From contig NC_092671.1 in the NCBI RefSeq assembly GCF_964355755.1, positions 16,463,501 to 16,527,500 of the forward strand: a DNA stretch of 64,000 nt. The letters run 5' to 3'. A program made the translations under genes and the position numbers. This stretch comes from Antedon mediterranea. Taxonomy: Eukaryota; Echinodermata; Crinoidea; Comatulida; Antedonidae. Within the stretch, counting starts at the first letter, position 1. Each line of letters begins with the position of its first letter. Under the pieces are notes generated by a model. It saw only the letters and a list, made by a program, of their open reading frames with translations. It was not told the origin of the DNA and ran no database searches. Below are positions 3,501 to 63,790 of the stretch, in pieces.

Positions 3501-6424
3501 TTTGTGTGGGCATGCAAGAATTATGATGGAGATGTACAGTCGGATATTGTTGCTCAAGGTAAAACAAAAAACAAATTCAGACATGTTGTGCTTTTGATTT
3601 ATATACTGTTAGACTATTTTTTTAAATAAATTCAAATTTAACAGGAGAGTATGAAACGGTATACATTAATAACTAATTTTTTAGGGACCTGTTTCTGCAC
3701 ATTCTATAGTAGTCAAAATCTCAGCCCAAAAAAAAAAGCTCTGTCTACACTATCTAACTACAGTCAACTCTCCCAATACCGGACACCCTTGGGCGGGCAT
3801 ATATTTTCCGGTTTTTCAAAAGTCCGGTTTCCTGAAAACATATTTTTAAAGTCATCACGTTGTCACTGAAAATGCTTTGAATCACCGGTCTGAATGCTGC
3901 CCGGTACGGCCTACTTTATTAATATTAAGCTAATTCAATTTACCTTTTTTAAAAGTTACATTATTTACTGTACCAATAAAACATGTTACAGTAGTAAATC
4001 ATTGTTTCTCAATGTGTTTTTAGCGGCAAAAAGGCCTAGGCTAGGCCTACGTACGTACGGTGAACATAATTTTGGTCGTTTATTGTTTATCGCGAGACTA
4101 GCAGCAGCATGGGTGATAAAAATAGCAGAGCGGGGCTTTGATTGATGCGCATGTGCAGAGGTGTCATAATCAAATAAAAACACCCACACTTAGACCACAT
4201 GTTTTTTAAGCTCCTTTATTTTGACGTAATTTGATAGCAATAAACGAGCCAAGCAATAATGACAATAATTAATTGGTAACATTCCAAAGTTTATTAACAC
4301 TAGTTAAGTCAAGTTCATTCCGTTTACGTTTTGCCATAATGATTTCCAAATTTATAATGATGCACATTTTTAGTGAAACATTCCTTTTTAAAGTCCTATT
4401 GCAATTGTGAATTTAACAATAATTTAAACAAAACAAAGACACAAAGTGGAATGTAAATTGAACTTTATTAAAAAACAATTCATATGCTAAAAAACAGGGA
4501 GTTGTTAACAACTCCCTGCTAAAAACAATAGACATTAAGACATAGCGCTCCACCGCAGTTCGATACGCAACAAAGCAATTGCCGCGCTTCGTGGGTTAAC
4601 AATGAACTGACCTGTCAATCAGTGTAGCGCTCCATGGCAACATTATTTGATCGTACCGCGAAACGTCGCGCACTTCATGCATGGTCTGGTCAGGGTATGG
4701 TTAAAAGCTTTTGTACATTGTGAATGTATTGAATCCGAGTCAGCGACGACGATGTTACGTTGTTTTCGTAAATATTTGGAGTTTTTTAACTGTCAGTCCG
4801 GTTTTCAGACGCTAATTTTCATGTTTTGTACTTCATAATTTGTCCGGAATTGGGTATTCCGGTTTTCATAATAAATTACAGTACATTTAGAATAGGGACA
4901 AATTGGGCCTTCCAAAAAAGTCCGGTTTTCCATGAATTCCGGTTTTGGGAGAGTTGACTGTACTTGGACAAAAAAGTATGATTTGCCCAAATATGATAGT
5001 AATATGACATCATCATCCATAATTATGTGGGCACATCACATTTTTTTGTCACATGAAGTTTGATAGTGTAGACCGAGATTTAAACAGTGAATGTCATTTA
5101 AACTTGTAAAGCATGGTACACAATACTTGGAAAATAGGTACCGCATACTAACATCAAAATTGCATTGTTTCAGGTTATGGATCTCTTGGTCTAATGACTA
5201 GTGTACTAGTGTGTCCAGATGGTAAGACAATTGAATCAGAGGCAGCTCATGGTACAGTCACCAGGCATTACAGGGAACATCAAAAGGTTTGTATAAACTA
5301 ATAGTGGTATAATGGAGAGTTTGGGAAAACTCGCGTATACATATCTTGGTCTAGCCAAGGCCAAGCCAACATGTTATACTTCTTTGTCGTTTTCTTGAAA
5401 CATTGTTATACTAATACTCTGTCTGAATTTTCTTGAATAATTTTGCTGGTAAAATTTCATGTGTGCCAACTTCATTTTCAATATTCTTGAATGTGTGAAA
5501 TGCAATCTGCACGTTCAAACGAATCGAAATCAGTATCAAATATGGTATTGATGTCAAGCTACACAGAATGTGTGACGTACTACCCAAATTTCACCCATAC
5601 GTATACGGATGTTGCACAAACTGCCTATTAAATACTGCCCATATTTGGCATTATGAACCTCTATACATGCAAATTTAATATTGTATATTCTTTGTATGTA
5701 TATGCAGGGTAACTCAACTAGTACTAATCCAGTAGCCAGTATTTTTGCCTGGACTAGAGGATTGGAACACCGTGCTAAACTAGATGGCAATGATGACCTG
5801 AAACACTTCTGCCAAACATTGGAGAAGGTGTGTGTAGATACAATAGATTCTGGCAAGATGACCAAAGATTTAGCTGGGTGCATCCATGGAATTAAGAAGT
5901 AAGTGCCATATTTTAGTTTAACAAGTTTAAGCCTTTGTTAATATAATTCAGAACTGGTTCAAGTTGTTAAAATTCAGTGAAACCTGACTGAATTGGGTGA
6001 ATTGGCAGATCTGATAATTTACCTGGTTTAGTGTGTGTTATGTTTATCTGTGTTTTGGATTCGGTCTATTCTCACATTTTATTGTGAAACCTAACTTTGG
6101 TAAACAAAATAGAACACATTCAATGGAAATCATCAAATCATTAATTGAATCACTTTTAATTAATTAATATTCACATCAGATGAATTCTGTATCATCCAAC
6201 TTAAAAATGAGAATACCAGAAAAAAGCATGTGACTGTTTTGTGTTTGGGCGTCCCATTTAATATAATAAATAATGTAATAATAATATGGAGTAATGTAAA
6301 TTTAAGTTATGTTTACATTTGTTTTATTGTTCAATTATTTTGCAGTGTCAAACCTGAGCATTTTCTTCAAACAATGGACTTTTTAGCTGCTATTGCAGAG
6401 AACCTTAATAAACAACTGAAATAA
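522..6424 (+). CDS. IDH2: Isocitrate dehydrogenase [NADP], mitochondrial (3' eight exons)
   Basis: The enzyme oxidatively decarboxylates isocitrate to 2-oxoglutarate with NADP+ in the mitochondrial matrix. I assembled eight exons: 522-616, 735-900, 1316-1476, 1877-2160, 3407-3558, 5174-5286, 5708-5898 and 6346-6424. All have GT-AG junctions, intron phases agree throughout, and the stop is TAA. They encode about 412 residues, close to the mature length of vertebrate IDH2; the transit-peptide exon is outside the window. Visible signatures are [15 protein letters not shown] at the start, the substrate loop [26 protein letters not shown] (with the Arg equivalent to human R172), [12 protein letters not shown] (catalytic Lys), [10 protein letters not shown] and NYDGDVQSD (metal-binding Asp). 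The start motif and the stretch [17 protein letters not shown] resemble mitochondrial IDH2 more than cytosolic IDH1. No coding damage is seen. Introns 2161-3406 and 3559-5173 are swollen by transposons. Confidence 0.97.
2228..2341. repeat. Short MITE, family A (terminal inverted repeats)
   Basis: The element begins AAGCTTTGTCTACGCTATCA and ends with the near-complement of that sequence, giving terminal inverted repeats of about 24 bp around a ~65 bp centre with GTGCCCA/TGGGCAC as an inner inverted pair. Related ends occur at 3737-5080 and, in decayed form, at 49298-49442. It has no coding capacity, so it is a non-autonomous DNA transposon by structure. Confidence 0.75.
2388..2561. repeat. Long-hairpin MITE in IDH2 intron
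   Basis: Two long arms are inverted around a centre near 2473. The core arms 2424-2442 and 2504-2522 are perfectly complementary over 19 bp (TATAAGATTTGACATCCCC and its complement). Imperfect pairing continues outward to ATATTATACAGATAT and ATATCTGTTATATTAT. The whole unit can fold into one hairpin and has no ORF. Confidence 0.75.
2991..3070 (+). repeat. tRNA-derived SINE head
   Basis: The segment reads like a tRNA gene: TGGCGCAGCGGTTGAAGCG matches an A box and GAGTTCAAGATCC matches a B box about 45 bp later. The acceptor-stem ends do not pair well, so a degenerate SINE head is more likely than a working tRNA gene. Confidence 0.55.
3109..3213. repeat. Direct repeat pair in IDH2 intron
   Basis: A ~34-bp segment containing AAATTACACAGTCAATATCA, followed by a CTCGAG-containing tail, occurs twice, at about 3109 and 3180. 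The ~71-bp offset suggests a small local duplication. Confidence 0.6.
3737..5080. repeat. MITE family A copy, split by a later insertion
   Basis: The left end at 3737 (AAGCTCTGTCTACACTATC) and the right end at about 5055-5080 (TTTGATAGTGTAGACCGAGA) are the terminal inverted repeats seen at 2228-2341. The two halves are separated by the 1,200-bp element at 3761-4960. Taking that element out leaves a short MITE whose right half also carries the GTGGGCACATCACA segment of the family. Confidence 0.8.
3761..4960. mobile_element. Nested non-autonomous DNA transposon with TA target duplication
   Basis: The element starts CAGTCAACTCTCCCAATACC and ends with GGTTTTGGGAGAGTTGACTG, so the outer ~15 bp are perfect inverted repeats. 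A TA dinucleotide flanks each side (3759-3760 and 4961-4962), as in the Tc1/mariner/pogo group. Subterminal CCGGTTTT/AAAACCGG motifs recur at both ends. The inside carries a perfect 24-bp palindrome at 4495-4518 and two CpG-richer stretches. I find no transposase ORF, so it depends on another element. It sits inside an older MITE within an IDH2 intron. Confidence 0.85.
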
Positions 6425-6503
6425 ATGACCAGATTGCCAGTGGTTGCAAGCAGTTTAAAAAGTAAAATGCAACTGAATTTGTAAATTAAATGTGTATATT
6501 TTT

Positions 6504-6509
6504 AATAAA
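6504..6509 (+). promoter_or_regulatory. IDH2 polyadenylation signal
   Basis: AATAAA lies 80 bp after the IDH2 stop codon. It is the first canonical signal downstream. Confidence 0.65.
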
Positions 6510-6984
6510 TATGTAAAACGTGGGTACAATTAATTAATTAAAACTAAAAATAATTTCTATTTTACTGAGTAATAATTCTCTCAGCTAATTGAGGCTATTT
6601 AAAAAATTAAACTTGATCTAAGTATGTGTAACCCTAACTCAGGACTATTCTAAGCCCAGAATAGTAAAAACATGCCATACCCTAATTTCTGCCAATTTTG
6701 GCCATTTGGGTAATTTGATAATTTAAAATGTTCACATTTATTTACAAACTTTCCTTTGTATTTTACAAACAGACTTTTGCAGCTTATGTTATGAACAAGT
6801 TTGATTAATTGTTGTGTCTAGAATTTAAACTAAAGCTATCGATCTAGTTTGCTGTAATTTAATCACATTGGTACAGTACTATTTTCTATAAATATTGGAT
6901 AATATTTGTCGTACCATATGCAGTAATCTTTTCCGCTTCATCATAAGTTTGTGCCAATTTTAGATATTTTATTTCTTCTAATGT

Positions 6985-7150
6985 CATTTTGTATGACTTA
7001 AGTTAATATGATTTAAGATGCTTTGTCATTTTATATGACTTAAGTTGCTTTGTCATTTTATATGACTTAAGTTGCTTTGTCATTTTATATGACTTAAGTT
7101 GCTTTGTCATTTTATATGACTTAAGTTACTTTGTCATTTTATAAGACTGT
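6985..7150. repeat. 27-bp minisatellite
   Basis: Five to six units of 27 bp contain CATTTTATATGACTTAAGTT followed by GCTTTGT. The outer units are more diverged (a TTAATATGA variant on the left, TATAAGACTG on the right), as expected of an array homogenised from its centre. Confidence 0.9.
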
Positions 7151-7790
7151 CATTTCCTATTTATTACATATGCATTTATGCGCAAATAAATATGAAATTT
7201 TTACTTTATTTTCATATAATTTGACAATTGTGCAAGTTCTTTATAAATAATTTCACATAAAAGCACTTAAAGTATTAAATAGTTACGTAAATGTTTGTAT
7301 AAATAAGAGCCAACTTAAGTTAGACAACTAATTTCAATAATTGAGTAACAAAGATACTCATATTGTCATTTAGTTTGCGTGAAATATAAAACTCGCATAA
7401 ATCATGTAATTTACAATTTACTTAAATAGTATTATTGTCCATGTCCATTCAATACATTTATAGAGGACAAAATGCTTAATATGCCAATGACTGATATAAT
7501 TAGTCCTAATCCAGTATTATTAATAATTATGATGGTCACACAGTGTGCTTAAGAAGATAATGTAATAAATTGCTGTGGAAAATGTCCAGTTTGGTGTGTT
7601 ATATTTTTTTGCTAATTTAGAATATGTCTATTAAATAAACAATTTACTTTTCTTTATAATACAATTTGATTTCTAAGACATTCCCGTACAGACTGCACCT
7701 AGTCTTTCTGAATCTACCATTCAGAATGCATCCTAACAATCCCTCCAATTAGTTGAAAGTCTTGGTGCATATGTATCCAAGATTTGAAAC

Positions 7791-8050
7791 TTTAAAGATG
7801 TATTGTCTGCCAAAAACATGAAAAAATAAAGATAAAATCAGACTTTCAATAGGCAAAACAATATTATTTCACTTATAAAAAGACAAACGAAAACATTTTA
7901 ACCAAAAACCATTGTCTGATAGTATTGCTTTAAATTACATTTCTTTCCCCGATCCAGTTTTTGGTCAAAGTGAATAACTATTACGTGACATGTAAATGGC
8001 ATATTCAACAAAAAAAATGTATTTAGTGGGAAAATATATCTTTAAATGTA
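7791..8050. repeat. MITE family B, copy 1
   Basis: The segment starts TTTAAAGATGTATTGTCTGCC, as two 20-bp-scale blocks shared with copies at 42053 and 49786, and ends near ATATCTTTAAATGTA. Shared internal blocks are AATCAGACTTTCAATAGGC, CACTTATAAAAAGACAAA and GGTCAAAGTGAATAACTATT. The ends are inverted repeats around GACAATACACCTTTAA. There is no ORF. Confidence 0.8.
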
Positions 8051-9109
8051 TTCTGGTTACCATGACTACATAACATGAAGATTATACTTATATAATTGAT
8101 AGTACTTCGTCGGCAAAAGTTCTGTCGACCATTTGGAATCTTGGATACGAACGGGCTCTGTAGAAAACGCTATACAAACTAATGGAGACCGCAATTTTAA
8201 TTGTAAAAATATATTAATGTCAGTTTCACATTTTTTAAATACTGAAATGCAATATATCAACTTTAATCTACCTTTTCCGTTATTATATCCAAAACCAATT
8301 TATGGCAAATATGTTTATCATCATTAATACTGTATATCTGCATTACCTTAATTAGTTCAGACATGCTACTTACTATTAAATTGATTAATTGCATTCAGTT
8401 GATGTATATTTATATAACTAAGCCAATAAAATTCTAATTTACTAAAGATTAATACTTCTTTTATAGATAGATTGCCGATGGAGTAAATGTGCACAAATAC
8501 ATAACTAGGCCCAAGTACAATAAAAGAACACTTACACAAATGACTGTTTTTTTTTTGGTGTTGTTAAAACTACAATAATGAAATGCATATTAGAAGTAAT
8601 AATACATATTATATTATAACTTTTACCATTAAACCGTATAATAAAGTATACTATTTATGATTCTCATTAATTATCGGCAAATGACATTTATGCATCTTAG
8701 TTATATATTTAATTGTATTTTTTTTTAAACATGACTAAAATATCGGAAAATAAGAGTCAACATTTGCAAATTGTTTGACTAAATATATATACTACTGTAC
8801 ATCAATTTTCTGTAAACATCCATATGAATGATGATAATTAATTAATTAATCAGTTCGGTTCCTCCTGCATCATCATAAAGATGATACCGTAATACATGCG
8901 CATCTTGCAATACTGTCGCCAAAATGTTAATGATTTTAAATGATATTTTGCTCTTTTATTGTTAGTGTTCATGAAATGTTTCTTTTATATTCCAGGTACA
9001 TCATAATAGGCCTGTATATTAGCTAATAGATATTAGCAAGACAAAAGTAATCTTGTTCTACCATTTCTTGACTACATCATATGTGATCTGAAAAAGTTTT
9101 CACAGGTAA

Positions 9110-10450
9110 CCAGTTACGACTTCATAATACGATGATAACGCAAATATGCCAATACATAACAATCTTTGACTTTTGAAAATAACCAATTTTGCCAAAATTT
9201 CGACCCTTTAATTGTTTTGACATAACTGAAGATGATAACGCAAAATATGGTCATTACCTGCATAACAATTGCATTTTGAAAAGGTTCATATTTTGCCAAT
9301 TTTTTCAAATGTCTCTGTACTATAATAATTCAAGGATTTTTAGTCACGTGCAACGCGACTCTACAGCTGACTATGCCGGTCTGTTGGTCGATAGGTAAAC
9401 ACTAACTCAAATTTGATTGCAGCCATGTATATGGCCTTGTTTAAAAAAAAATAACGCGATTTTGACCCTTTATTTTTTTACATAATTGCTTGCTATGAAT
9501 CTATAGGACATAATAACACAATACCGTGCTCCTATATGCCAATATTATTGTATAACAATACTTTTAAACTATCAAGGTATATATCAAATATAAGGGTCGA
9601 AATTACTATAGTACAAGAATTACAAAAACAATTTCGACCTTTTTATTTTTCGTCATAACTGGTTACTACGGTATATTATAATTAACATGCGCAGAAGACA
9701 TTGTATGATTCTGCGCATATCAATTATGATATGGTAACCAGTTATATAAAAAAATTAAATTGTCGAAATTTGGAAATTTTTGAAAATTTTTCTGTACTAT
9801 AGTACAAGGATTTTTTACTAAAAAATTCCAAATTTCGACCTTTTTATTTTTCGTCATAACTAGTTACTATGTTATAACTGGTAACTACAATTCTTCCAAA
9901 ATTTCCCTGTACTATTACAAGGATTTTTCCCCAAAAATTGCAAAATTTCGACCTTTCTATTTTACGTCATAACTGGTTACTATATTATAATTAACATTCG
10001 CAGAATTTGTAATAAATTTCCAAAAATTGCCAAATTTTAACCTTTTTATTTTTTTAATATAACATGAGCAGAACACATTAGGCCTATATGCGCAAATCAA
10101 TTATGATATAGTAACCATTTATGTCAACAAAAAAAAGTATCGACATTTTCCCTTAACTAAAAAAAAACACGCCAGAATCATATAATGTATTCTGCGCATG
10201 TTAATTACAATATAGTAACCAGTTCTGACGTAAAGTAAAAAGGTCGAAATTTTGGGAAAAAAATCCTTGTACAGGGACATTTTTTAAGAATTGCCAAATT
10301 TCGAAATCTTTATTTTTCGTCATAACTGGTTACTAAATCATAATTGACATGCGCAGAACACATTATATGATTCTGCGCATATCAATTTTGAGTCGAAATT
10401 TGGCAATTTTTCAAAAATTTCCCTGTACTATATATATAGTACATGGATTT
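9110..10450. repeat. Cluster of palindromic MITE-like repeats (family C)
   Basis: The blocks CATAACTGGTTACTATATTA, ACATGCGCAGAACACATTAT, CTGCGCATATCAATTATGAT and TTTCGACCTTTTTATTTT are repeated many times in both orientations. Adjacent copies form inverted pairs centred on the TGCGCAG...CTGCGCA core. The same family recurs at 25300-26140 and 27320-27540, so it flanks the large satellite on both sides. No coding potential is seen. Confidence 0.8.
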
Positions 10451-10877: not shown

Positions 10878-13299
10878 GCTCACTCACTGCTTATATCAAT
10901 ATACTATATTTTTTTAGTTTCTGCCTAAGTCAGCTGTGCGACTTAGGCAATTAAGGAGAGCTGACTTATGATCTGCCTAAGTCACTGCTTATATCAATAT
11001 ACTGCCCTCTGTACATTATCTGAGTGCTTTTATATACATTTGCACATGCTCAGATCGTTTTTTTTTGTGTTTTTGCCTAAGTCAGCTGTGTGACTTAGGC
11101 AATTAAGGAGAGGAGACTCATGATTTTTTAAATAAAATAAGAAATACATTTTTATAGTATATTTTTTAACCCATTTGTTACAAATTCTTTCTCTTTTATT
11201 GCTACTTTCCTTTTCTAAAATCATCAGTGTTAATTTTAATCTGAAGAGCTGATGCTATTAAATTTGGTTACTTAAAGGTAGCATTTTTTGTATATAAATG
11301 ATATCGACAGCCTCATAACAAAAGTGTCTAAGTCATAATTTTTTTTTTCTGCCTACCTCACTGCTTATATCAATATACTATATTTTTTGTGTTTCTGCCT
11401 AAGTCAGCTGTGTGACTTAGGCAATTAAGGAGAGCTGACTTGTGATCTGCCTAACTCACTGCTTATATCAATATACTATATTTTTTTGTGTTTCTGCCTA
11501 AGTCAGCTGTGTGACTTAGGCAATTAAGGAGAGCTGACTTATGATCTGCCTAACTCACTGCTTATATCTTTATACTGCCCTCTGTACATTATCTGAGTGC
11601 TTTTATATACATTTGCACATGCTCAGATCGTTTTTTGTGTTTCTGCCTAAGTCAGCTGTGTGACTTAGGCAATTAAGGAGAGGAGACTCATGATTTTTTA
11701 AATAAAATAAGAAATACATTTTTATAGTATATTTTTTAACCCATTTGTTACAAATACTTTCTCTTTTATTGCTACTTTCCTTTTCTAAAATCATCAGTGT
11801 TAATTTTAATCTGAAGAGCTGATGCTATTAAATTTTGTTACTTAAAGGTAGAATTTTTTGTATATAGATGATATCGACAGCCTCATAACAAAAGTATCTA
11901 AGTCATAATTTTTGATTTGTTTTTCTGCCTAACTCACTCATGCTTATATCAATATACTATATTTGTTGTGTTCTGCCCAAGTCAGCTGTGTGACTTAGGC
12001 AATTAAGGAGAGCTGACTTATGATCTGCCTAACTCACTGCTTATATCTTTATACTGCCCTCTGTACATTATCTGAGTGCTTTTATATACATTTGCACATG
12101 CTCAGATCGTTTTTTTTTTGTGTTTCTGCCTAAGTCAGCTGTGTGACTTAGGCAATTAAGGAGAGGAGACTCATGATTTTTTATTAAATAAAATAAGAAA
12201 TACATTTTTATAGTATATTTTTTAACCCATTTGTTACAAATTCTTTCTCTTTTATTGCTACTTTCCTTTTCTAAAATCATCAGTGTTAATTTTAATCTGA
12301 AGAGCTGATGCTATTAAATTTTGTTACTTAAAGGTAGAATTTTTTTTATATAGATGATATCGACAGCCTCATAACAAAAGTATCTAAGTCATAATTTTTT
12401 TTTCTGCCTAACTCACTGCTTATATCAATATACTATATTTTTTGTGTTTCTGCCTAAGTCAGCTGTGTGACTTAGGCAATTATGGAGAGCTGACTTATGA
12501 TCTGCCTAAGTCACTGCTTATATCTTTATACTGCCCTCTGTACATTATCTGAGTGCTTTTATATACATTTGCACATGCTCAGATCGTTTTTTGTTTTGTT
12601 TTTGCCTAAGTCAGCTGTGTGACTTAGGCAATTAAGGAGAGGAGACTCATGATTTTTTAAATAAAATAAGAAATACATTTTTATAGTATATTTTTTAACC
12701 CATTTGTTACAAATTCTTTCTGTTTATTGCTACTTTCCTTTTCTAAAATCATCAGTGTTGATTTTAATCTGAAGAGCTGATGCTATTAAATTTGGTTACT
12801 TTAAGGTAGCATTTTTTTGTATATAGATGATATCGACAGCCTCATAACAAAAGTGTCTAAGTCATAATTTTTTTTTTCTGCCTACCTCACTGCTTATATC
12901 AATATACTATATTTTTTGTGTTTCTGCCTAAGTCAGCTGTGTGACTTAGGCAATTAAGGAGAGCTGACTTATGATCTGCCTAACTCACTGCTTATATCAA
13001 TATACTATATTTTTTGTGTTTCTGCCTAAGTCAGCTGTGTGACTTAGGCAATTAAGGAGAGCTGACTTATGATCTGCCTAAGTCACTGCTTATATCTTTA
13101 TACTGCCCTCTGTACATTATCTGAGTGCTTTTATATACATTTGCACATGCTCAGATCGTTTTTTGTTGTGTTTTTGCCTAAGTCAGCTGTGTGACTTAGG
13201 CAATTAAGGAGAGGAGACTAATGATTTTTTAAATAAAATAAGAAGTACATTTTTATAGTATATTTTTTAACCCATTTGTTACAAATTCTTTCTCTTTTA

Positions 13300-16200
13300 T
13301 TGCTACTTTCCTTTTCTAAAATCATCAGTGTTAATTTTAATCTGAAGAGCTGATGCTATTAAATTTGGTTACTTAAAGGTAGCATTTTTTTGTATATAGA
13401 TGATATCGACAGCCTCATAACAAAAGTGTCTAAGTCATAATTTTTTTTTTTCTGCCTACCTCACTGCTTATATCAATATACTATATTTTTTGTGTTTCTG
13501 CCTAAGTCAGCTGTGTGACTTAGGCAATTAAGGAGAGCTGACTTGTGATCTGCCTAACTCACTGCTTATATCAATATACTATATTTTTTTGTGTTTCTGC
13601 CTAAGTCAGCTGTGTGACTTAGGCAATTAAGGAGAGCTGACTTATGATCTGCCTAACTCACTGCTTATATCTTTATACTGCCCTCTGTACATTATCTGAG
13701 TGCTTTTATATACATTTGCACATGCTCAGATCGTTTTTTGTGTTTCTGCCTAAGTCAGCTGTGTGACTTAGGCAATTAAGGAGAGGAGACTCATGATTTT
13801 TTAAATAAAATAAGAAATACATTTTTATAGTATATTTTTTAACCCATTTGTTACAAATACTTTCTCTTTTATTGCTACTTTCCTTTTCTAAAATCATCAG
13901 TGTTAATTTTAATCTGAAGAGCTGATGCTATTAAATTTTGTTACTTAAAGGTAGAATTTTTTGTATATAGATGATATCGACAGCCTCATAACAAAAGTAT
14001 CTAAGTCATAATTTTTGTTTTGTTTTTCTGCCTAACTCACTCATGCTTATATCAATATACTATATTTGTTGTGTTCTGCCCAAGTCAGCTGTGTGACTTA
14101 GGCAATTAAGGAGAGCTGACTTATGATCTGCCTAACTCACTGCTTATATCTTTATACTGCCCTCTGTACATTATCTGAGTGCTTTTATATACATTTGCAC
14201 ATGCTCAAATCGGTTTTTTTTTGTGTTTCTGCCTAAGTCAGCTGTGTGACTTAGGCAATTAAGGAGAGGAGACTCATGATTTTTTATTAAATAAAATAAG
14301 AAATACATTTTTATAGTATATTTTTTAACCCATTTGTTACAAATTCTTTCTCTTTTATTGCTACTTTCCTTTTCTAAAATCATCAGTGTTAATTTTAATC
14401 TGAAGAGCTGATGCTATTAAATTTTGTTACTTAAAGGTAGAATTTTTTGTATATAGATGATATCGACAGCCTCATAACAAAAGTGTCTAAGTCATAATTT
14501 TTTTTTCTGCCTAACTCACTGCTTATATCAATATACTATATTTTTTGTGTTTCTGCCTAAGTCAGCTGTGTGACTTAGGCAATTATGGAGAGCTGACTTA
14601 TGATCTGCCTAAGTCACTGCTTATATCTTTATACTGCCCTCTGTACATTATCTGAGTGCTTTTATATACATTTGCACATGCTCAGATCGTTTTTTGTTTT
14701 GTTTTTGCCTAAGTCAGCTGTGTGACTTAGGCAATTAAGGAGAGGAGACTCATGATTTTTTAAATAAAATAAGAAATACATTTTTATAGTATATTTTTTA
14801 ACCCATTTGTTACAAATTCTTTCTCTTTATTGCTACTTTCCTTTTCTAAAATCATCAGTGTTAATTTTAATCTGAAGAGCTGATGCTATTAAATTTGGTT
14901 ACTTTAAGGTAGCATTTTTTTGTATATAGATGATATCGACAGCCTCATAACAAAAGTGTCTAAGTCATAATTTTTTTTTTCTGCCTACCTCACTGCTTAT
15001 ATCAATATACTATATTTTTTGTGTTTCTGCCTAAGTCAGCTGTGTGACTTAGGCAATTAAGGAGAGCTGACTTATGATCTTCCTAACTCACTGCTTATAT
15101 CAATATACTATATTTTTTGTGTTTCTGCCTAAGTCAGCTGTGTGACTTAGGCAATTAAGGAGAGCTGACTTATGATCTGCCTAACTCACTGATTATATCT
15201 TTATACTGCCCTCTGTACATTATCTGAGTGCTTTTATATACATTTGCACATGCTCAGATCGTTTTTTGTTTTGTTTTTGCCTAAGTCAGCTGTGTGACTT
15301 AGGCAATTAAGGAGAGGAGACTCATGATTTTTTAAATAAAATAAGAAATACATTTTTATAGTATATTTTTTAACCCATTTGTTACAAATTCTTTCTCTTT
15401 ATTGCTACTTTCCTTTTTTAAAATCATCAGTGTTGATTTTAATCTGAAGAGCTGATGCTATTAAATTTGGTTACTTAAAGGTAGCATTTTTTTGTATATA
15501 GATGATATCGACAGCCTCATAACAAAAGTGTCTAAGTCATAATTTTTTTTTTCTGTCTACCTCACTGCTTATATCAATATACTATATTTTTTGTGTTTCT
15601 GCCTAAGTCAGCTGTGTGACTTAGGCAATTAAGGAGAGCTGACTTATGATCTGCCTAACTCACTGCTTATATCAATATACTATATTTTTTGTGTTTCTGC
15701 CTAAGTCAGCTGTGTGACTTAGGCAATTAAGGAGAGCTGACTTATGATCTGCCTAACTCACTGATTATATCTTTATACTGCCCTCTGTACATTATCTATC
15801 TTTTATATACATTTGCACATGCTCAGATCGTTTTTTGTGTTTCTGCCCAAGTCAGCTGTGTGACTTAGGCAATTAAGGAGAGGAGACTCATGATTTTTTA
15901 AATAAAATACGAAATACATTTTTATAGTATATTTTTTAACCCATTTGTTACAAATTCTTTCTTTTTTATTGCTACTTTCCTTTTCTAAAATCATCAGTGT
16001 TAATTTTAATCTGAAGAGCTGATGCTATTAAATTTTGTTACTTAAAGGTAGAATTTTTTTGTATATAGATGATATCGACAGCCTCATAACAAAAGTGTCT
16101 AAGTCATAATTTTTGTTTTGTTTTTCTGCCTAACTCACTCATGCTTATATCAATATACTATATTTGTTGTGTTCTGCCCAAGTCAGCTGTGTGACTTAGG

Positions 16201-25150: not shown

Positions 25151-25221
25151 TTTGTGTTTGCAATTAAGGAGAGGAGACTCATGATTTGTTAAATAAAATA
25201 AGAAATACATTTTTATAGTAT

Positions 25222-34152: not shown

Positions 34153-34229
34153 CACTAAAAACAAAATTAACAATTAGTGAGTGGGATGATATATAGGTAA
34201 GGCCTACACAATTTTCATTAGGTGTTTAT

Positions 34230-46110: not shown

Positions 46111-46124
46111 ATTATATTATATAT

Positions 46125-46330: not shown

Positions 46331-46336
<6 letters not shown>

Positions 46337-49600: not shown

Positions 49601-52600
49601 AACAATTTTCAAGTTAAACTGCAATATTTGTTAGCTAGAAGAAAGCTATATTACTGGTGGAATAATGTAAACAATTATGTACCTCTGAAAATCCAATTAA
49701 AGCACATACAACAAAGAAGCCAATAATCTTGAGAGTCATCAGTAAATAGTGTGATTGGTGTTCTGAAATAAAATAACAAAACATTAAAGATGTATTGTTC
49801 CCAAAAACATAAAAAAATGAAGATTAATTAAATCAGACTTTGAATAGATTATTTTCTAGTTAAAAAATTTCATCACAATCAAATAATAGGAAAAACAATG
49901 TTTTCACTTATAAAATGACAAAATAAATGGTTAAATTAAAACAAAAATCCATTGTCTGGCAGCAAATTTGACTATTTTTTTGCTTTAAATTACTCTTTTT
50001 TCAGGTAAATACATTTTTTTTCGATAAAATATTTGGTCAAAGTGGATAGATATTATGTAATATGAAAATGGCATATTCAACAAAAACAATGTTTTAAGAA
50101 TTATTTTTTCAGGGAGACAATACACCTTTAAGAGAATTTTTTAAAGATTGGTTGATTTTCTTAATAGCCCTTTTGCAGTGTTTTAATATTGTATTCTAGT
50201 CTCTGGGGTGCCTTAAAAAAGCTAAACCCCATTACAGGATGGAATATATACATCCATCCCTTATCAGCTCACCAACATATTACGTCAAAGATGCTCTCCA
50301 GGTACATCCAGAGATGAGTTAGTAAATTGTTTTTTTCAATGTGGACATTCTAGAACTGAAGTCAGAAAGTTTACCCAGTGATTGTAAGCACTACCCACTA
50401 TCCAACAGTGCCATCATTTTATTCTAGCTATTGAATAAATTAATTAATGTACCAGCTGCTGTTTTTACAGTCATTCTAGGTGGTATGATCATGACAACAT
50501 AAACTACCAGGAACCAGAATGAGACGAGAGGAACAAAGTAGTAGAACTGGTAGGGTCTATCCATCGTCAAGCAAAGAAAAAACACCAGGAAATTCAAACG
50601 GAACATAACCTTTAAGAACAAAAGTAGTACACAAGAGTTTAAAATTCAGAATAATCAGGTACCAAGATAAACTTTTACACCCAGACTTCATTTATTGTCA
50701 CACCCATAAAAAATATTTTAAAATTATTAGTCTCACCTGACAAACACGGACAATACCAAATTCTCCTTTCTTCCAGAAGAAGCTGAAATGTCCATATCCC
50801 GTTTGAAACAGATACATTGCAACAAGGACACGAACATGCATATAGATAGGTAAAACCTGTAAAATACAATATATATATATATATAAGTTAGGATGAATAT
50901 AACTTTCTTACTCTTGATAGACAACTTCTCAGCTTGCCGTAGATCACTTATTAGTAGTTGGCCTCTGTATTTGTTAGATAAATCATGAATAATACCACCA
51001 AACTTGCGAGTTAGGATGACTATAACGAGGCATTTAATAAAAAGGCAAATTGCCTTAAAATGTAAATGTGACATGTTTCGAGAAACTATTGCGTGAACAT
51101 TTCAGGGACAAGGCTTCTCACATTTTTCAACATCTGCAGGATTCAGAACGGTGTAAGGCCCTCGCTAATACGGGTTGCTTCACCGTTCTGGATTCTGAAG
51201 ATTCCGCTTTCAAACTTAAGGTCAAGGAAGCCCTCCACATCTCGTGGAGTAAACCTTCCTTGAACAAACAAATCTATAACTTCGGCGTCACACTTGCCAT
51301 ATGATTGGTTGTTGCCTACATTCCTTGTTTTATTATGCTAATTACTTACTTATTTACATACAATATGTCCTATTGGTATATAAGCACTCTAGGCGTTGTT
51401 TACTGTTCTGATGATGAGAATAGTTTCTCGAAACATGTCACATTTACATTTTAAGGCAATTTGCCTTTTTATTAAATGCCTCATTATAGTCATCCTAACT
51501 CGCAAGTTTGGTGGTATTATTCATGATATATATATATAAGTGTTTGACTGATTGGTAGATATATAAATACTGTATATGATGGCATTTAATAGAATGGCTT
51601 GCATTGGATCTGCTAAAAAATTAGGCAGTACAATGGGACTATCAGTTGAGTAATACATTCTTTAATTTGTATGGCACTGGTTAAAAATTACCTAATAATT
51701 GTTCCTTTCGATTCTGAACCATACACAAAGAAGCAATCAATATAATTTTAGTTAAAAAAAAATTTTTTTTTTAAGGCTTAAATATCTAAATAAAAATACA
51801 AGTAAAATATAATACTTTGAGAAGCTTACCGCACTAGCGCCGGTGATATGATACACTAGGATAACAAGCTGCATCCATCCTTTCCACTCATCTGTTTGGT
51901 CGCGGTTTAACACGGTGGGCTGTGTAATAACAAATTTTTTTACCTGATCAATTGATATAGTAAACTCATTCAAAATTCTCTATTTAAATGTTATACTGAA
52001 TTGTTTTATTCACGAAATGGATATAACATTTCCATTGAAAGATAAAATGTTTTTTTTTGCTTGTAAAAATTTATCATTTTAAACAAAAATATATTTTTGT
52101 TCATATCTGTATTAATGAAACGCAACATAGCATGTTAAGCGTATTAACTCGAACGCATTCTATATGATCCTCAGATATATATTATCAAACAATATTTAGT
52201 GGCCATGTTTTTGTTAATATTATGTTTTCTGTTTCATTTTGTCTGTTTTTTAATGGCGTTCCTGACACAAGCATTTGCTTTCTAGGTGACGCCACCATTT
52301 GATTGATTGATAGCATAAAAACAAAAAATATGAATAAACCTTACTTGTTTGGTTTCTCGACCAAAGAAAAATCCCAAGCTGAGATAACCAAAAAGCACAA
52401 AGAACTGGATGTAACTAAAGTGTTTCTGTTCTTTCGGGAGAAGGTCAGTCCTGCAAAATATATTTTAAACAAATTACATTGTTAAGCTTTAATTGTATAG
52501 AAATGATTCAATTCAATTTATCTTTTACAGTCATTATGCTTGTTTGGTCGATATTTATTTGTTGTTGTAAGATTGTCAAAACTTGTTATTTTGTTTGATG

Positions 52601-55600
52601 TTTTATGTGTTTTTTTTTAATTGCTAAAAAGCCAGAATTAGCTGGTCTTTTTGTAAAGAAGAGTGTGATTAAATAAATAAAAATAAATATAAATTAGAAA
52701 CTCTTTGTAAATAAACTGCAGCAGATAAAAAGTTAAAAATACATTTGAAAAAAAGTTAAAACCAAAGAAAGTTTTTAAAAGTTATAAAATATAATTCATT
52801 ATATACAATATAAAATTTATATACAATTTATAAAATATTTATTTTATGATCCAGATAGGCTAATTATATTGAAACACGACTTGTTATAACGTTTAGTACA
52901 ACTAAGACGTTGAACATGAAACAATAAACTGTCCTCTACCCAAGAGGGAAAAAATCACATGATTGGCCACACTAGAGAAGAAAAACTTGAATGGCCAGAT
53001 CTACAGCAGGAGAAAAAGAATTATTTTTTTGTCAGTCCAATTAAAAATTACTAGCAGGAGGATTAGTAGCTTAGTATTGTTTTTCAGTAGAGATAATTTA
53101 AGAAAATTGTAAATATAAATATTAAGCTTAGATTAAAGAAAAAGGGAACAATATAAAAAAATGTATACCTATCGCAAAGATAGAAATATAACATAATAAC
53201 ACCAAACTTCGTAAGAGCTAACAGCACGTTATATAACTCTTCATCATCATTTAAAACATTTGGTCGTCTTGGTTCCAATTCCGGAACATGTCCATTAGGT
53301 AAGTGACCATTAGCCACTTGACCAGCACCTTCTTCGCACATTGCAGGATTCGGCTGTACCGTTTTTTTCCTCCAAATGCGTATATACATAAACAGTGTGC
53401 CAAAAAAGCTGAAAAGACAGACATACAGTAAGAACAGTTTACTATATTGGTTGTTGATTCTGAAAATGTAATAAAGATTGTGTGGACAGATTATTACACA
53501 CAATTACAATTACTGAAAATATCCTTATATGCGCGTAAATGAGGTACTTTGGTAGTACATAATTGTTTTACTCTTTTTATCATAATCAACCATAAAACGT
53601 ACATTTAAGAAAAGGAATGACTTTCTAAAGTATTATATAAAACGTCAACAATTGTGTCTTTAAATATGAGTTCTTGCTGTAGCCAACATTAATTGTATAA
53701 AAAATCCTTACCAAAAGGTAAAAAAGGGAATCAATGATTTTTGTTGAAACGTAAGAGGAAACGGCAAGCCTTTGCAACAAGTGGCATCCGCTGGATCAAC
53801 ATCCTTGTTACAGATCCAATTCAACAGCAGATGGCAATTCTATTAATAAAAATGAATGTTTTACTATTTGAAAAATCTTAAATTACAACGTATGGTTTAC
53901 AATGTAAACACCAGATAAATTCACAGTACACAATCTCTATGCTTAATTATTTTGTACCAATTATATTGTAACAGAAAGTCTGTTTGTACAGTAATGGGTA
54001 CTTACAACTAGTAAAATGAAAATAAAATTGAATTCTATTAAATTTGCACAATGGGAAATTAAGATATAATTGTTTATGTAAATTAAGAAAAGTTATGATA
54101 CTGTATAATGCAATGCATGAATTACAAATACAAAACCTTCTCATTACAAATACAACACCTTCTAACAACCTAACAGGATGAGAATTACATTACAATATTA
54201 TTGGCTTATGAATTATTAGTTGAACAAAATAACTTACAATGTCAACAACAAGAGCAGGAAAGTGAAGTCCGTCCTTTGATGGTATTGGAGAAAAAAATGC
54301 TGTTTTCCTAACAGATTGCCAAAGTTGAATGTCTGATTCATGACTGAAAATTATTAAATATATATAAATTTAACTCTTTCGATTTTTATTACATAATTTT
54401 GCCAGTTTAGCATAGCAAAAATCTATAAAAAAAACTACCCTTCTGTTACACATTTATAAAATTGTGTAGCAAAAAAATACAAAACTATGTTTCTAGACTC
54501 AAAATTTAGTTTGATTTAGCTAAATTTTCAACAAAATATTAAAATGAAAATTTTTCCCGACATGTCCATATTATGGATTTCTATGCAAGTCTTACAATTT
54601 CATGTGGTACACACCAGCCATTTGTGGAGGTACAATTACACTTTCTTCCTATTTTGTTAATCAAATTTCAATGCTAAGAAAAACTTAATAAAAACAATAA
54701 TCGTATTGTAATAACAATAAAAGCTTAAAACTATATTTTAATTTGTGAATCTATGCTTAGAAGAGGAAGTTTAATTTTAAATTCCAGTCTTACGGCGTCA
54801 AAATGGTTTTTGGGAAATATTCCATAACAACTTAGCAAGGCATGCATATGCCATGGTTTAAGTAATTGTACTCAGTATTTGTTCAATTTGGGATATTCAT
54901 ATGAAGCTATGATTGCATATGCAATGTAGTGTAGATAATGAAGATTTATGGAATGGATTTGGATATAAATCAAAGATAAATTAGAAGACAAACCGATACT
55001 GACAATATGCAATATTACACAAAAAGTGAAAGTTATACTAACAATACGTCAAATGCTATATCATTGTACATATCAATTTGACTGTTTGTAATGGACTTTC
55101 TTTCTTCAGATAATAGCATGTACTGTACTGGACCTGAAACATGTAATACGTTTCATGTTATTATAGTTTCATTAAAAAATTATAGAATGCAAACTGCCTG
55201 AGCTGATCATGACTCAAACACAACAGAATATATTTAACAAAGTTTTGAAATTGCCAATAGGACCACTATATGACAGAAATGGAACCCAATGTCAATTAGC
55301 AATGGTGCTCTCCAACTAGGCTGTGTTCGGACGTAAAATTAGTTTAATACCCTTGAGAGCTAAACCAGTGATCGTTCAGACAATGACCAATTTACACATG
55401 TAAACTGAAAAATGTACCCAGCAAAGTCATATTCATGCATCTTTTTACACTAGTAAGGTCAAATTGCTCCTTATATTGTGATTAATGAGCTTGCGGTTTA
55501 AGGTGTAATTGAACAATCCACCTCATGAGTTAGGTTTTTGGGTCTGTTTCTGCTGAAAAAATAAAAATATGCGATTCGAAGTACCACAAAACACATTAAT

Positions 55601-58600
55601 GGTGTACTTGTAAAGCAGAATCCAGGAGTCTTTCGGTATAATTCTCCCCCACAAAATAATAACAATGAAATGTTATCTCATCGGTCTATATCGTTGTTTT
55701 GCTGAGCGCAAATATACAGCATGCTTTGTGAGTGAGAATTGCAATACTCTAGAGGTCAAACTGTGGTCAACAATCACTATTTGTGTTGCAGCTAAAAACT
55801 GCTCCGCAATAATTGGTTAAAACAACAAATAATAGGTTAAAACACGCAATGGATTATCGGTTATTTTTTAATCGGTTTTATTTCATTTTTCGCCATTTCT
55901 GCTGCCCAAAAATTATAGATTAAAAAAATAATTGGTTAATAACCGATTATTCCTGCTCAACAGAAACAGGCCCTTTGAAACAGCTGGTTTATCTCAAAAT
56001 TTACACCACACGCTACCATTTCAAATGCGCTCATACAGTAGTTGTTAAAAAATGAAAAGTATCAGTGAAAGAAACCCACAAACAACAAAATATTTAAAAA
56101 CAATTTTGACATTACCTTGTAACATCCACAACATGTTTACATCTGGCTGTTTAACTAATTTGTCCATTTCAGTAGAAACTTTTGTTAAATTTACTAAATA
56201 ATTAGATGGATAAAACAGTTTTTAATGTTTTAAACTTTGAACTGCATTATTTACTACAAATTAACTAGTGTTGTGATTTTGGTAGTGATGTTATTAATGC
56301 TGATTATAATAAAAAATAATACTACTGACAATACTGGTAATAATTTCATTTCATTTATTTGACCAAAAAAAACCCAATAAAAACAGGTCAGGAAAAACAA
56401 TGAGTCAGTAATTCCTTATACAAATACAAATATATAAATTTGGTAATTATGAAAAGCACTATTCACAATAAAATCCTATTATATATTATTTCTAATCAAT
56501 GTGGAGTGACTGTCTGTACTAGGAGATAAAGGTGTCTAGAGACGAAAGGACTGCGGAATCTTTGATAAATAATGTTCATTAAATAATGATGATGAATGGT
56601 GTTAAAAGATGATGATGAAGCGGATAGTAATGTTGTTGATGGTGATAATGTTCATGATGATTGTGATGATGATGATAGTGATGATGACAAAGATATTGTG
56701 ATGATGTTGATATTGATAACGACAATGATATTGTGATGATGATGATAGTGATGATGACAATGATATTGTGATGATGATGACAATGATATTGTGATGATGA
56801 TAACGATATTGTGATGGCAGTGATTATATTGTGATGATGATATTGATGATGTGATTGTATTGTGATGACAGTGATTATATTTTGATGATGACAATTTTAT
56901 TGTGATGATAGTGATTATATTGTGATGATGACAATGATATTGTGATGATGATAGTGATGGTGGCAATGATATTGTGATGAAAGTAATTATATTACGATGA
57001 TGATAGTGATGTTGGTAAATAATGTGAATGATATGGAAAGTAGTAAAAAGGATGATAACGATAATACCAGTGACAAATGGTGAAAAAAGATGAAGATGAA
57101 TTTACCCTTGTATTGTTGCAGTGCCTCAAAGTCTCCTTGGAATGTTTTGATAGTCCACGTAGCAGCACCATGAACAATCAAATTTGGCTTTGGTTTAGTA
57201 CCCTACAACAAAATAGTACATTCCAAAATAGGTTTAATTTAGTGCTTTGTTTCCTGGTATTTGGCACTGGGGAAACTACTGTAAAACCTTGAAAAGGTTT
57301 GCAAAAGTAATCTGGAAAAGAAGCCAATCTTAAAAGAAGCCCATCTTAAAAGAAGCCCATCTTAAAAGAAGCCCATCTTAAAAGAAGCCCATCTTAAAAG
57401 AAGCCAATCTTAAAAGAAGCCAATCTTAAAAGAAGCCCATCTTAAAAGAAGCCAATCTTAAAAGAAGCCAATCTTAAAAGAAGCCAATCTTAAAAGAAGC
57501 CAATCTTAAAAGAAGCCAATCTTAAAAGAAGCCAATCTTAAAAGAAGCCAATCTTAAAAGAAGCCAATCTTAAAAGAAGCCAATCTTAAAAGAAGCCCAT
57601 CTTAAAAGAAGCCAATCTTAAAAGAAGCCAATCTTAAAAGAAGCCAATCTTAAAAGAAGCCAATCTTAAAAGAAGCCAATCTTAAAAGAAGCCAATCTTA
57701 AAAGAAGCCAATCTTAAAAGAAGCCAATCTTAAAAGAAGCCAATCTTAAAGGAAGCCAATCTTAAAGGAAGCCAATCTTAAAGGAAGCCAATCTTAAAGG
57801 AAGCCAATCTTAAAAGAAGCCAATCTTAAAAGAAGCCAATCTTAAAAGAAGCCAATCTTAAAAGAAGCCCATCTTAAAAGAAGCCAATCTTAAAAGAAGC
57901 CCATCTTAAAAGAAGCCCATCTTAAAAGAAGCCCATCTTAAAAGAAGCCAATCTTAAAAGAAGCCAATCTTAAAAGAAGCCAATCTTAAAAGAAGCCAAT
58001 CTTAAAAGAAGCCCATCTTAAAAGAAGCCCATCTTAAAAGAAGCCCATCTTAAAAGAAGCCCATCTTAAAAGAAGCCCATCTTAAAAGAAGCCAATCTTA
58101 AAAGAAGCCAATCTTAAAAGAAGCCAATCTTAAAAGAAGCCAATCTTAAAAGAAGCCAATCTTAAAAGAAGCCAATCTTAAAAGAAGCCAATCTTAAAAG
58201 AAGCCAATCTTAAAAGAAGCCAATCTTAAAAGAAGCCAATCTTAAAAGAAGCCAATCTTAAAAGAAGCCAATCTTAAAAGAAGCCAATCTTAAAAGAAGC
58301 CCATCTTAAAAGAAGCCCATCTTAAAAGAAGCCCATCTTAAAAGAAGCCAATCTTAAAAGAAGCCAATCTTAAAAGAAGCCAATCTTAAAAGAAGCCAAT
58401 CTTAAAAGAAGCCAATCTTAAAAGAAGCCAATCTTAAAAGAAGCCAATCTTAAAAGAAGCCAATCTTAAAAGAAGCCCATCTTAAAAGAAGCCCATCTTA
58501 AAAGAAGCCCATCTTAAAAGAAGCCCATCTTAAAAGAAGCCAATCTTAAAAGAAGCCAATCTTAAAAGAAGCCAATCTTAAAAGAAGCCAATCTTAAAAG

Positions 58601-60292: not shown

Positions 60293-61248
60293 CTGTGAAT
60301 AAAAAAAGAAATATCATTTATATTCGTTTATCAAAAGGAAGACTTGACAAGGAAGACTTGACAAGAAAACTGTGACACATCAAAGACAAATTTTAAGGCT
60401 GACCACGAGATATTTATTTGGTAGCTGACAAAACTATATACAAAATCAAACATGTTTTGGTAGACCTTGTAACGCCAAATGAAGTGACATTGCCAAATGA
60501 GGTTCGCGTGGCCTGTATCGCACAAGGCTAGGTCACTTAATTTGGCAGCACGTTTCTGGCGAGCTAATCGTGTTATAAATATTGATATTACTTATTTTCA
60601 AATAAACACAAACTGAAAATTATTAACCGGAGTATTTCTAACCTAATAACCTTTACTCATTGTATGAAATTAAACCATTATAACTGAAACATACGACGAA
60701 AATTTACTATTTTAGTGTAAAAAACGAAAGGCACTGTTCATCGAAAAATCTAGAAAACTCGAAATGCATGATGGGAAGCCTACCGACCCCTTTCTAAGCA
60801 GCTGGAAAAGGAGACTACTCGTTTTAGCGTGTCTGAAGTCACGTCTGCATGTTATGCGGACATGGTCTGGGACAATTTGCCTTTGGGCGCTAAAGCGTTT
60901 AGTGTTTGAGTTATGGGATTATTTTCTAGTAATAATTTGATTTGACGTTCCTTTCGTCGGTACATGATTCCCGTTATTATTTTGTTCGGTTTTATGAATT
61001 TCTATGTTTATGTTTTCAAATTAAAATGATTATTCGTTGAATATGAATGTATCCTGTTATTCTACTGATTATTATATATATTTTTTTGTTTAACATTGCT
61101 TACTATTTAATCAATTCCGTTTTTTTAAATGTATATGACCAATGTTATTTAGGCCTAAGTTTTTTATTTATAAGTTCTTTAAAAATATTAGTTACATGAT
61201 CACATTTTTGTCACTTATTATACCTACAGTATAACACTATATTTCCTT

Positions 61249-62290
61249 TGATGTCTGAAACATTAAAACATAAATTCGCAATACTATGGCGAACCTAAGT
61301 CGCAAATTGTTAGTTGGATATTCGTTATAATTTCATCATCTCATTTGTTACACATGTATGTGTGACCTATAATAAATAAATAAGGGATGGTAGGCCTAAA
61401 GGTAGTCGAGGGGAAATTCATCAAATTGTTTCATCAAAACAATAACTCATAAGGTCGGAAACATTTAGATAATGGAACCAAATTTTGCAATAAAGTCTTT
61501 ATTGCAAAATTTGGTTCCATTATCTAAATGTTAAAAGATGAGATATTGCCTTGTTCTCTTTTGTTATCAATCTTTTCATGTCACGTACCGTAATAGAATG
61601 TAACAGTTGAACATGCATATCACAATAAATAAATAATGGTACCTAATTAGTTCAGCATTTTCATCAAGTTTTAACAATATTTGATGTCGGAAAGTAACAT
61701 TCCCAATAATATAGAGACTAATTTTGCAATATGTTAGATATTTTATTCAGCTGGTGCCGGAAACATTTGAACATAAATTCGCAATAATGGATCATAATTG
61801 TGCAATGAAGTTGTCATCTCATTTGTTCATATCGATGTGAGAAACAGTTTGGATGGGAATGTGGTGAGCGAAATTCTAAGCAAGCCAAATACATGATACA
61901 GTTATTTTAAGGTTGGGAACAAACGTGAATTCGCAAATAATTGAACGTAATTTTGCAATAAAGTCGTCATCTCGTTGGTTCATATTACGATGTGGGAAAC
62001 AAGTTTGGATGGGAATGGGGTGGTGAACAAAATTCTAAGTAAGTATTACTTCGAAGTCGGAAACAACCTTAAATTCGCAATAATGCAATGGAACCTAAAT
62101 TTGCAATGAAGTCGGTCACCTTGTTTGTTCATACGATGTTGAAAGCATGTTCGGAGGGGTGGATGAAATTCTAGGAAGCTAAATACAGTTACCGTAGTTA
62201 TAACACTAATTATTTTGAGGTCGGGAATATTAGAATTTATACTTAAATGGAACCTAATTTTGCAATGGAGATTGCATGCGTTATTTTCAT
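61249..62290. repeat. Degenerate ~155-bp tandem repeat
   Basis: Four to five units begin GTCGGAAACA-like, then AAATTCGCAATAATGGAACC, TAATTTTGCAATAAAGTCG, CATCTCATTTGTTCATA and GGAATGGGGTGGTGA-like. Starts are near 61249, 61753, 61911, 62056 and 62220, and spacing at the left is disturbed by the palindrome at 61460. Confidence 0.75.
61460..61532. repeat. Perfect palindrome, 36-bp arms, 1-nt centre
   Basis: The arm at 61460-61495 (starting AACATTTAGATAATGG, ending GCAATAAAG) is the exact complement of 61497-61532, with a single T between. The arm sequence contains the GGAACC-AAATTTTGCAATAAAG motif of the surrounding tandem repeat. Confidence 0.9.
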
Positions 62291-62460
62291 CTCGATTGTT
62301 CGTTCCATCAATTCATACGTCGTACATAATATATAACATGCATGCACTTTTATACTTTGTGGGGTGATGAGAATGGGATGCTACTGTAAGTTAATATTTT
62401 TTATTTATTGACATACAGTAATTTAATTAGCTATATTGATGGAATAGTAGATTAGGCCTA

Positions 62461-63790
62461 TATTTACACATTTGCAGCCTTCACTATTTATAGAATAAAT
62501 CAGCATTAAATAAGCCAGTGGGTAAATCTTTATGGAATTCATTTAAAAGCAATATGCTATATAACATTGAATGTGAAAGATATAACAATAAAGAAACAAG
62601 TATAGAAAAATGGGTAGCTTTAAGAAATACTATTATGTTAATATAAATTCTAATTTGCTCGATTATCAGAAAAGAATTCACTGTGATACGAGTTACAGGT
62701 GGTGCTGATCTGATTTAATTCGTTTTATCTTGTATATAAATACATTGTATACATAATCCGGGTTGTAAAATTAAAACAAACAATTGAAAATCTCACAAAT
62801 TCTTTATGTGTAAAATATTTTACAACGAAGAACATTAATGAAAATAGGAGGCAATACGGAATTCATAAATGTAAAAATGTTACTGATGAATTGTAACGAC
62901 ATTGGGAATTAACAAATGTGTTAAATAATATGATTTTATGTAGTGACATGAGATAATATATGAATGTGGATAAAAGTGGTGTTTACGCCACAAAAGAGAA
63001 AAAAAAAGCTATCGATGGAATGGTGGGTACGAAATCCATGATAATATAGTTACTTATCTAAAATAAATTCGACGGGAACCTGATTTTACAAGAGGACCTC
63101 TTATATGAGTTTGTGAGGACTCCGTTTATAGAGGACATCTTAATATCTGTTCTAAAGACTCCTTATATCAGTTCTAGAATTAACCTTAATTCAATTCAAA
63201 TTGATCAGTTCTTTTCTAATGAAGAATCTGGGAAATTTACAATCAAGCAACAACACCACATAATTCTACGTGAATTCTGCTGTACGTGAGCTAGCCTTAA
63301 TAATACCGCCTGATTACGGTATATAGGCCTACAGTATTAGCTTCAGAATAAATGACAACGCATTCTACAGATATTAAAACAGAATGAAAATATTAAATTG
63401 GCTTCGTTGAAATGTTGTACCTTGATAGACAGACCCTCAAGCAGACAGCCCACATTACTGTACAGACAATCTGCACTGCAGCACAATCTATTGGTTTTAA
63501 CTGTACACGCGGTGATTCAACTAAAAGCAGTAAAAACATTTTGGCACACAAGGCGTATCATATAATTTGCGGACCATGACCGAAGCACTTCCGCTTCGAT
63601 CTATTCGACGAAAATCAAAAAAGGATAACTATTTGCTGCTTTATATTTAATTTAATGTAATAGCTTGATCTAATAACAGGCGTAACAACACAGAATACAT
63701 ATTGTAGTTTAATACTGGCTTAAATATGTTTGTTTTATATAAACTGTATTTTACAAAATTACAATAGAACTTCATTTTGCAATAGTACCT
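62461..63790. other. AT-rich DNA with a possible LINE scrap
   Basis: At 62500-62635 the plus strand gives a broken frame around NKPVGKSLWNSFKSNM and EKWVALRNTI, vaguely like a non-LTR retrotransposon protein, but too short to assign. Otherwise I see no gene or RNA. Confidence 0.3.

Follow-up and report, generated by a model that had tools for sequence, protein, structure and literature searches.

The window analysed here is a stretch of 64,000 nucleotides from the crinoid Antedon mediterranea (NCBI RefSeq assembly GCF_964355755.1, contig NC_092671.1, positions 16,463,501 to 16,527,500). It contains reading frames of rhodopsin-like G protein-coupled receptors (GPCRs), tandem arrays (11001-28000 and 47001-56000), interspersed repeats, a pogo-type DNA transposon, and scattered copies of the palindromic octamer TAGGCCTA, in which GGCC stands between two TA dinucleotides. 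A first-pass annotation of the window had listed 15 copies of this octamer and proposed that a GGCCTA unit is gained or lost at TA sites. All 15 positions proved to be exact matches, and 100 dinucleotide-shuffled versions of the window contained a mean of 0.61 copies and a maximum of 3. The observation is thereby confirmed, and its scale goes far beyond what the window suggests.

Genome-wide, TAGGCCTA occurs 128,596 times in 354,431,138 bases, or once per 2.76 kb (the 354.4-Mb assembly consists of 18 contigs, and 11 exceed 22 Mb). Palindromes of the same composition, the comparison suggested by the first-pass annotation, are 19 and 27 times rarer, with 6,792 copies of TACCGGTA and 4,686 of ATGGCCAT, respectively. 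Word statistics were obtained on a 118-kb sample composed of 16 random 5-kb stretches and the window minus its tandem arrays, which lack TAGGCCTA. The second-order Markov expectation, scaled up from this sample, is ~3,600 copies for the genome, corresponding to a ~35-fold excess. The 80 kb of random sequence held 19 copies, spread over 11 of the 16 stretches. In the 118-kb sample, TA-GGCC-TA was seen 34 times versus 1.2 expected, and GGCC within any other palindromic two-base flank at most twice each. The excess attaches to the entire word, both TA dinucleotides included. Islands dense in TAGGCCTA, TAGCC and CTAG words are present in the genome. A large fold-back at about 6287-8332 of G000 C1 (loci L160, L001 and L161) has arms rich in TAGGCCTA and TAG words; the ends of the fold-back around L001 read TA-TGG, not GGC. 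Among the literature matches listed, no title or abstract opening dealt with the TAGGCCTA phenomenon, and no literature on AGGCCT palindromes was found. The octamer may also occur in sequences of other marine animals; the counts given here come from one genome only.

The features of the window are listed in the table below. The 15 sites are not 15 independent events, as one lies in an interspersed repeat (fam1), one in the pogo-type element (fam3), and two share a flank; judging from this flank, the sites at 43702 and 44519 are probably one duplicated site. A 4.2-kb query retrieved the fam1 repeat; it had 6,251 first-look candidates, and 40 of these were scored. The octamer is found in 39 of the 40 aligned copies, and the word is exactly doubled in tandem in 14. 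Because TAGGCCTA is ancestral to fam1, the site at 41580 does not represent an event of its own locus.

Table. Copies of TAGGCCTA and the repeat elements that carry them in the window (positions within the 64,000 nucleotides).
Feature	Position	Strand	Observation
fam3, non-autonomous DNA transposon	3759-4962	+	TA-bounded, with inverted termini CAGTCAACTCTCCCAA
TAGGCCTA	4042-4049		within the pogo-type element 3759-4962 (fam3); GGCC-rich stretch whose length varies among family copies
TAGGCCTA	10079-10086		three paralogue rows, none with a 6-bp gap; no clean empty site
TAGGCCTA	31062-31069		no empty paralogue among compared sequences
TAGGCCTA	33648-33655		empty paralogue is a clean single TA; insert keeps the minus-strand GPCR frame and adds Arg-Pro
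TAGGCCTA	35237-35244		no empty paralogue among compared sequences
TAGGCCTA	36577-36584		no empty paralogue among compared sequences
fam1 copy (interspersed repeat)	41523-41978	+	carries TAGGCCTA at 41580-41587
TAGGCCTA	41580-41587		ancestral to fam1
TAGGCCTA	43283-43290		no empty paralogue among compared sequences
TAGGCCTA	43702-43709		right flank in common with 44519
TAGGCCTA	44519-44526		right flank in common with 43702
TAGGCCTA	44851-44858		single-TA empty paralogue; one further A indel adjoining
TAGGCCTA	61150-61157		no empty paralogue among compared sequences
TAGGCCTA	61391-61398		no empty paralogue among compared sequences
TAGGCCTA	62453-62460		no empty paralogue among compared sequences
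TAGGCCTA	63324-63331		no empty paralogue among compared sequences

The octamer arises recurrently by insertion of six bases at a single TA. The most direct cases come from fam2, represented by 40 aligned copies of the repeat at L014:3929-4489, where the copies L079 and L087 each carry TAGGCCTA. At the L079 site TA is found in 37 of these copies, the others having T and TGTTACA, and at the L087 site it is found in 38, with CA in the other. Since no GGCC adjoins either site, slippage did not copy the word there, and the gains in L079 and L087 are independent private insertions. A gapped-pattern search for further fam2 insertions returned none and is uninformative, as its anchors mismatch the subfamily of L079 and the searched interval does not reach the insertion of L087. 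Filled and unfilled states were also compared in 1,387 alignments covering the window and loci outside the families, which yielded 18 rows at 13 sites with the word in only one of the two copies. A 6-bp gap leaving a single TA was observed in 4 rows at 3 sites, namely 33648, 44851 and L014:2111, the last with two empty paralogues. The gain of a GGCCTA unit at TA, as first proposed, is supported by the private insertions in L079 and L087 and by the empty paralogues of these three sites. The two window paralogues cited in its favour read as described, one with a clean gap and the other with the extra A indel, and the site at 10079, already called the weaker case, is ambiguous in all three rows. 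Differences at TAGGCCTA are not always clean insertions, and the single-TA state is not cleanly seen at 10 of the 13 sites; six sites in L002 and three in L001 show substitutions or complex differences, such as TAAGCCTA versus TAGGCCTA.

Slippage of a (GGCCTA)n microsatellite was considered and rejected. The tandem 14-mer TAGGCCTAGGCCTA occurs 3,596 times genome-wide versus 128,596 octamers, so that at most ~5.6% of TAGGCCTA sites lie in a tandem pair, and gains occur without an adjacent unit. With so few tandem pairs, TAGGCCTA is therefore not a microsatellite.

GGCC is one of several inserts enriched between two TA dinucleotides. In the 118-kb sample, the three highest 3-letter inserts were CAG/CTG (88 versus 27 expected), GCC/GGC (30 versus 10.6) and CCG/CGG (22 versus 9.4), and among 4-letter inserts CCGG (7 versus 0.94) stood alongside GGCC. 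A few 6-letter inserts were also raised, with 4-6 copies each. When the flanks were AT..AT, AA..TT or TT..AA instead, the five highest inserts included none of these 3-letter pairs. Genome-wide, TACWGTA was counted 314,048 times and its reversed word 118,829 times, an excess of ~195,000, to which tandem arrays contribute; TAGSCTA was counted 95,494 times versus 21,652 for its reversed word, which contains CpG. One tandem array (G000 C1:11415-12638) carries TACTGTA every 74-79 bp. The word TACATGTA, the product expected for CA ends with 2-nt overhangs, was not enriched (10 versus 8.1).

The same words appear de novo in the repeat families. Across fam1, fam2 and fam3, 8 of the 16 private, non-tandem insertions of 5-6 bp create TA-X-TA words of the enriched set: CAG three times (L051, L116 and L126), GGCC three times (L079, L087 and L137, the last inside a GGCC-rich stretch), GCC once (L024) and CGG once (L047). 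Insertions of CAG common to 9 and to 3 copies were found in fam3, and L136 shows a 7-bp gain, TA-GCCTA-TA.

The CAG insert corresponds to the ends of elements resident in this genome. For fam3, 472 first-look candidates were retrieved, 40 scored and 37 copies aligned. Three loci, L148, L149 and L150, match the DDE_1 (pogo/Tigger) transposase, are 98-99.7% identical to one another and start with the same sequence as fam3; their opposite ends lie beyond the loci read, and their longest open frames span ~325-331 codons. On the basis of these shared starts, this family is likely the autonomous partner of fam3. A second pogo-type element, L147, has the ends CAGTAGAACC and a 539-aa open reading frame with DDE_1 and Tc5 DNA-binding domains. 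In fam3, L148-L150 and L147 alike, CAG adjoins the TA at the element ends, and it is the insert of the private TA-CAG-TA words in L051, L116 and L126. A CAG-ended pogo family is thus resident, and fam3 is the likely donor of the TA-CAG-TA scars.

We consider it probable, though far from certain, that most copies of TAGGCCTA are footprints left by the excision of TA-targeting cut-and-paste DNA transposons of the Tc1/mariner/pogo type and formed by repair of 3-nt overhangs. Such an element would insert at TA and duplicate it. Excision would leave each flank with a 3' overhang of three terminal bases, after which the flanks would be joined by the host. Ends of the form GGC...GCC would pair either by a two-base overlap (GC, a perfect match), giving TA-GGCC-TA, or by a three-base overlap with a central mismatch, giving TA-G(G/C)C-TA. 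For CAG...CTG ends, only the three-base overlap with a central mismatch would be available, giving TA-C(A/T)G-TA, and CCG...CGG ends would give TA-CCGG-TA and TA-C(C/G)G-TA. The scars would then persist and decay by ordinary mutation, some being copied further within repeat families. This account is well supported for the CAG class. For the GGCC class we infer it, together with the overhang details and a GGC-ended source element.

Known systems resemble these words in part. The origin first proposed is the one commonly given for Tc1/mariner elements, in which 3' overhangs derived from the element ends stay behind at the donor site. In the excerpted text of PMC8151067, the Sleeping Beauty footprint is CAG. 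The CAG class found here matches the footprint reported for Sleeping Beauty, and the TA duplication and the short insert between two TA dinucleotides are likewise shared, whereas the main word here is GGCC, the donor of which was not found in the sequence read. Footprints of 2-4 bp are given for Tc1/mariner elements in an excerpt of PMC7913693; Passer, a member of the pogo group, leaves 0-4 bp according to an excerpt of PMC9976928. The pogo/Tigger (DDE_1) elements resident here duplicate TA, carry CAG ends and exist as near-identical copies, but their own ends do not predict GGCC. PIF/Harbinger elements can have GG(G/C)CC ends, according to part of PMC4423477, but they duplicate TTA or TAA, and their footprint would read TTA-GGCC-TTA or TAA-GGCC-TAA. 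A PIF/Harbinger footprint was rejected because GGCC is flanked by TA, not TTA/TAA, both in the overrepresented word and in the empty states of the L079 and L087 sites.

Several observations weigh against the reading as excision footprints. No element with GGC, GG or CCG ends was found in the sequence examined, which comprised ~200 kb and 21 transposase loci (8 of 8 DDE_3 and 13 of 47 DDE_1 matches). The TA-flanked GG...CC elements that the first-pass annotation had anticipated were likewise not recovered, GG-starting hits all lying in larger inverted repeats or GGCC-rich islands. Of the 21 transposase loci, L147 and the L148-L150 family alone showed clear long termini, with CAG in every case, and none of the weak TA-bounded inverted repeats at the other loci starts with GGC or CCG. 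The whole genome has only 8 DDE_3 matches, and the PF01359 profile gave no genome matches, although this profile was also silent in control genomes. When TA-adjacent positions were tested for words in common, GGC ranked first, but the words shown came from GGCC islands and the tandem array of the window. The remaining 8 of the 16 private insertions are varied and do not fit the set (three of them lie near misaligned ends or in the GGCC-rich stretch), and the families show only two direct gains of GGCC, or three if L137 is counted. Other TA-X-TA words are raised too, including GTGA (18 versus 5.4), TATA and ATAA. Insertions of fam3 shun A next to TA (6 of 67 half-sites); at the 68 half-sites flanking TAGGCCTA, A is at.28 versus.35 in the background and C at.28 versus.17. 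Since this A-avoidance is only faint at TAGGCCTA, another enzyme, or no transposition, may act there. The ~195,000 excess copies of TACWGTA compared with 472 first-look candidates of fam3 imply hundreds of scars per known element. Excisions in rice were mostly ragged, with 8 of 94 perfect, in the excerpted part of PMC4423477. The initial proposal that a TA-duplicating transposon with GG...CC ends is excised is supported indirectly, as other TA-X-TA words are enriched and arise likewise and CAG corresponds to pogo/Tigger ends; the putative GG(C)...(G)CC donor itself does not appear in the sequence read.

The rate of gain bears on the foremost alternative. The three families provide 86.9 kb of aligned bases with 734 private substitutions, and the two GGCC gains outside GGCC-rich stretches amount to one per 367 private substitutions. 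With decay at eight positions, the computed steady-state density is one copy per 2.9 kb versus the observed one per 2.76 kb, a match that serves as a consistency check only because it rests on two events (95% range 0.8 to 24 kb). Single-base neighbours of TAGGCCTA show an excess of ~18 (49 versus 30.5), and a long steady state would give ~33 by our own prediction; this shortfall leans towards recent activity.

Direct micro-insertion is possible, though unlikely. A TA-cutting enzyme, for example a domesticated or active transposase, would open the site and end processing would add the same bases to each end, no element ever having been present. The uniform and palindromic insert agrees with such a process, as do the number of scars relative to known elements, the lack of a GGC-ended donor in the sequence read, and a gain rate that could account for the genome load at steady state. 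Its difficulty lies in the CAG class, which is non-palindromic and matches the ends of a resident element exactly; moreover, no such enzyme has been identified, none having been searched for. In a broader form, a continuing sequence-specific insertion at TA would produce the GGCC, CAG, GCC and CCG classes without an element for each site, an enzyme and repair writing fixed inserts of 5-6 bp at about one GGCCTA per 370 private substitutions, a rate that could supply the whole genome load at steady state; we think this unlikely.

Copying of the word within repeat families and GGCC-rich islands, in which a few true insertions would be amplified by transposition and tandem duplication, is improbable. 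The presence of the word in nearly all fam1 copies, the dense islands and the 3,596 tandem pairs speak for it, and the single-copy independent gains in L079 and L087 and the spread of sites over most of the random stretches speak against it. An origin of the palindrome by substitution, favoured as a methylation or binding site as for HIP1 of cyanobacteria, likewise a single palindromic octamer in extreme genome-wide excess (in the excerpted text of PMC4390886), draws on the huge excess of the palindrome and on L002 units that differ as TAAGCCTA/TAGGCCTA, but was rejected as the main route and is highly improbable, since in this animal genome new copies are 6-bp insertions at TA, and further TA-X-TA words are likewise in excess and originate in the same manner.

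Insertion of the word can affect genes. By the genetic code, a GGCCTA insert adds Arg-Pro, Gly-Leu or a TAG stop, depending on the frame. The insert at 33648 falls in frame within the first of two rhodopsin-like GPCR paralogues, both on the minus strand (33331-34173 and 38771-39937), and gives it an additional Arg-Pro compared with the second. The copy with the insert is also missing a block of transmembrane sequence and may be a pseudogene. Scars would contribute notably to short indels, as 6 bp keep the frame and add two residues or a stop. If the words are scars, hundreds of thousands of transposon departures would be recorded in one assembly, and word counts could be used to derive the rates of excision, the chemistry of the overhangs and the ends of the donors. 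To our knowledge, such a number of scars is far above that of any other genome. If no donor exists, an animal genome would be undergoing sequence-specific insertion by a process as yet unexplained.

Several further repeats were noted. TA-CCGGACCGACAG was considered as an element end and rejected, as it belongs to a dispersed minisatellite. This minisatellite consists of CCGACAGA-like units and always starts with GATA or TATA, followed by CCGGACCGACAG; it occurs in the window at 10522, 16655, 17305, 24273, 24923 and 25275, in L013 at 424 and 1083, and in L014 at 1006. Another TA-bounded inverted-repeat element, with the ends GTGTAGACAGAGCT, occupies 2325-3752 of the window, and two of the random stretches have similar termini, at L012 87-254 and L019 882-1291. 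Inverted copies of one sequence adjoin a Tc1-like DDE_3 frame in L139 (~616-1359) and L143 (~1799-2554), two loci that are 91% identical over 3.2 kb; these copies resemble the histone mRNA 3' stem-loop. The fam1 copy L055 carries a 49-bp insertion that resembles a very small miniature inverted-repeat transposable element of the hAT type; its inverted ends CAGGGAAGAGTTAAAT match perfectly, and GTTTAAT is duplicated.

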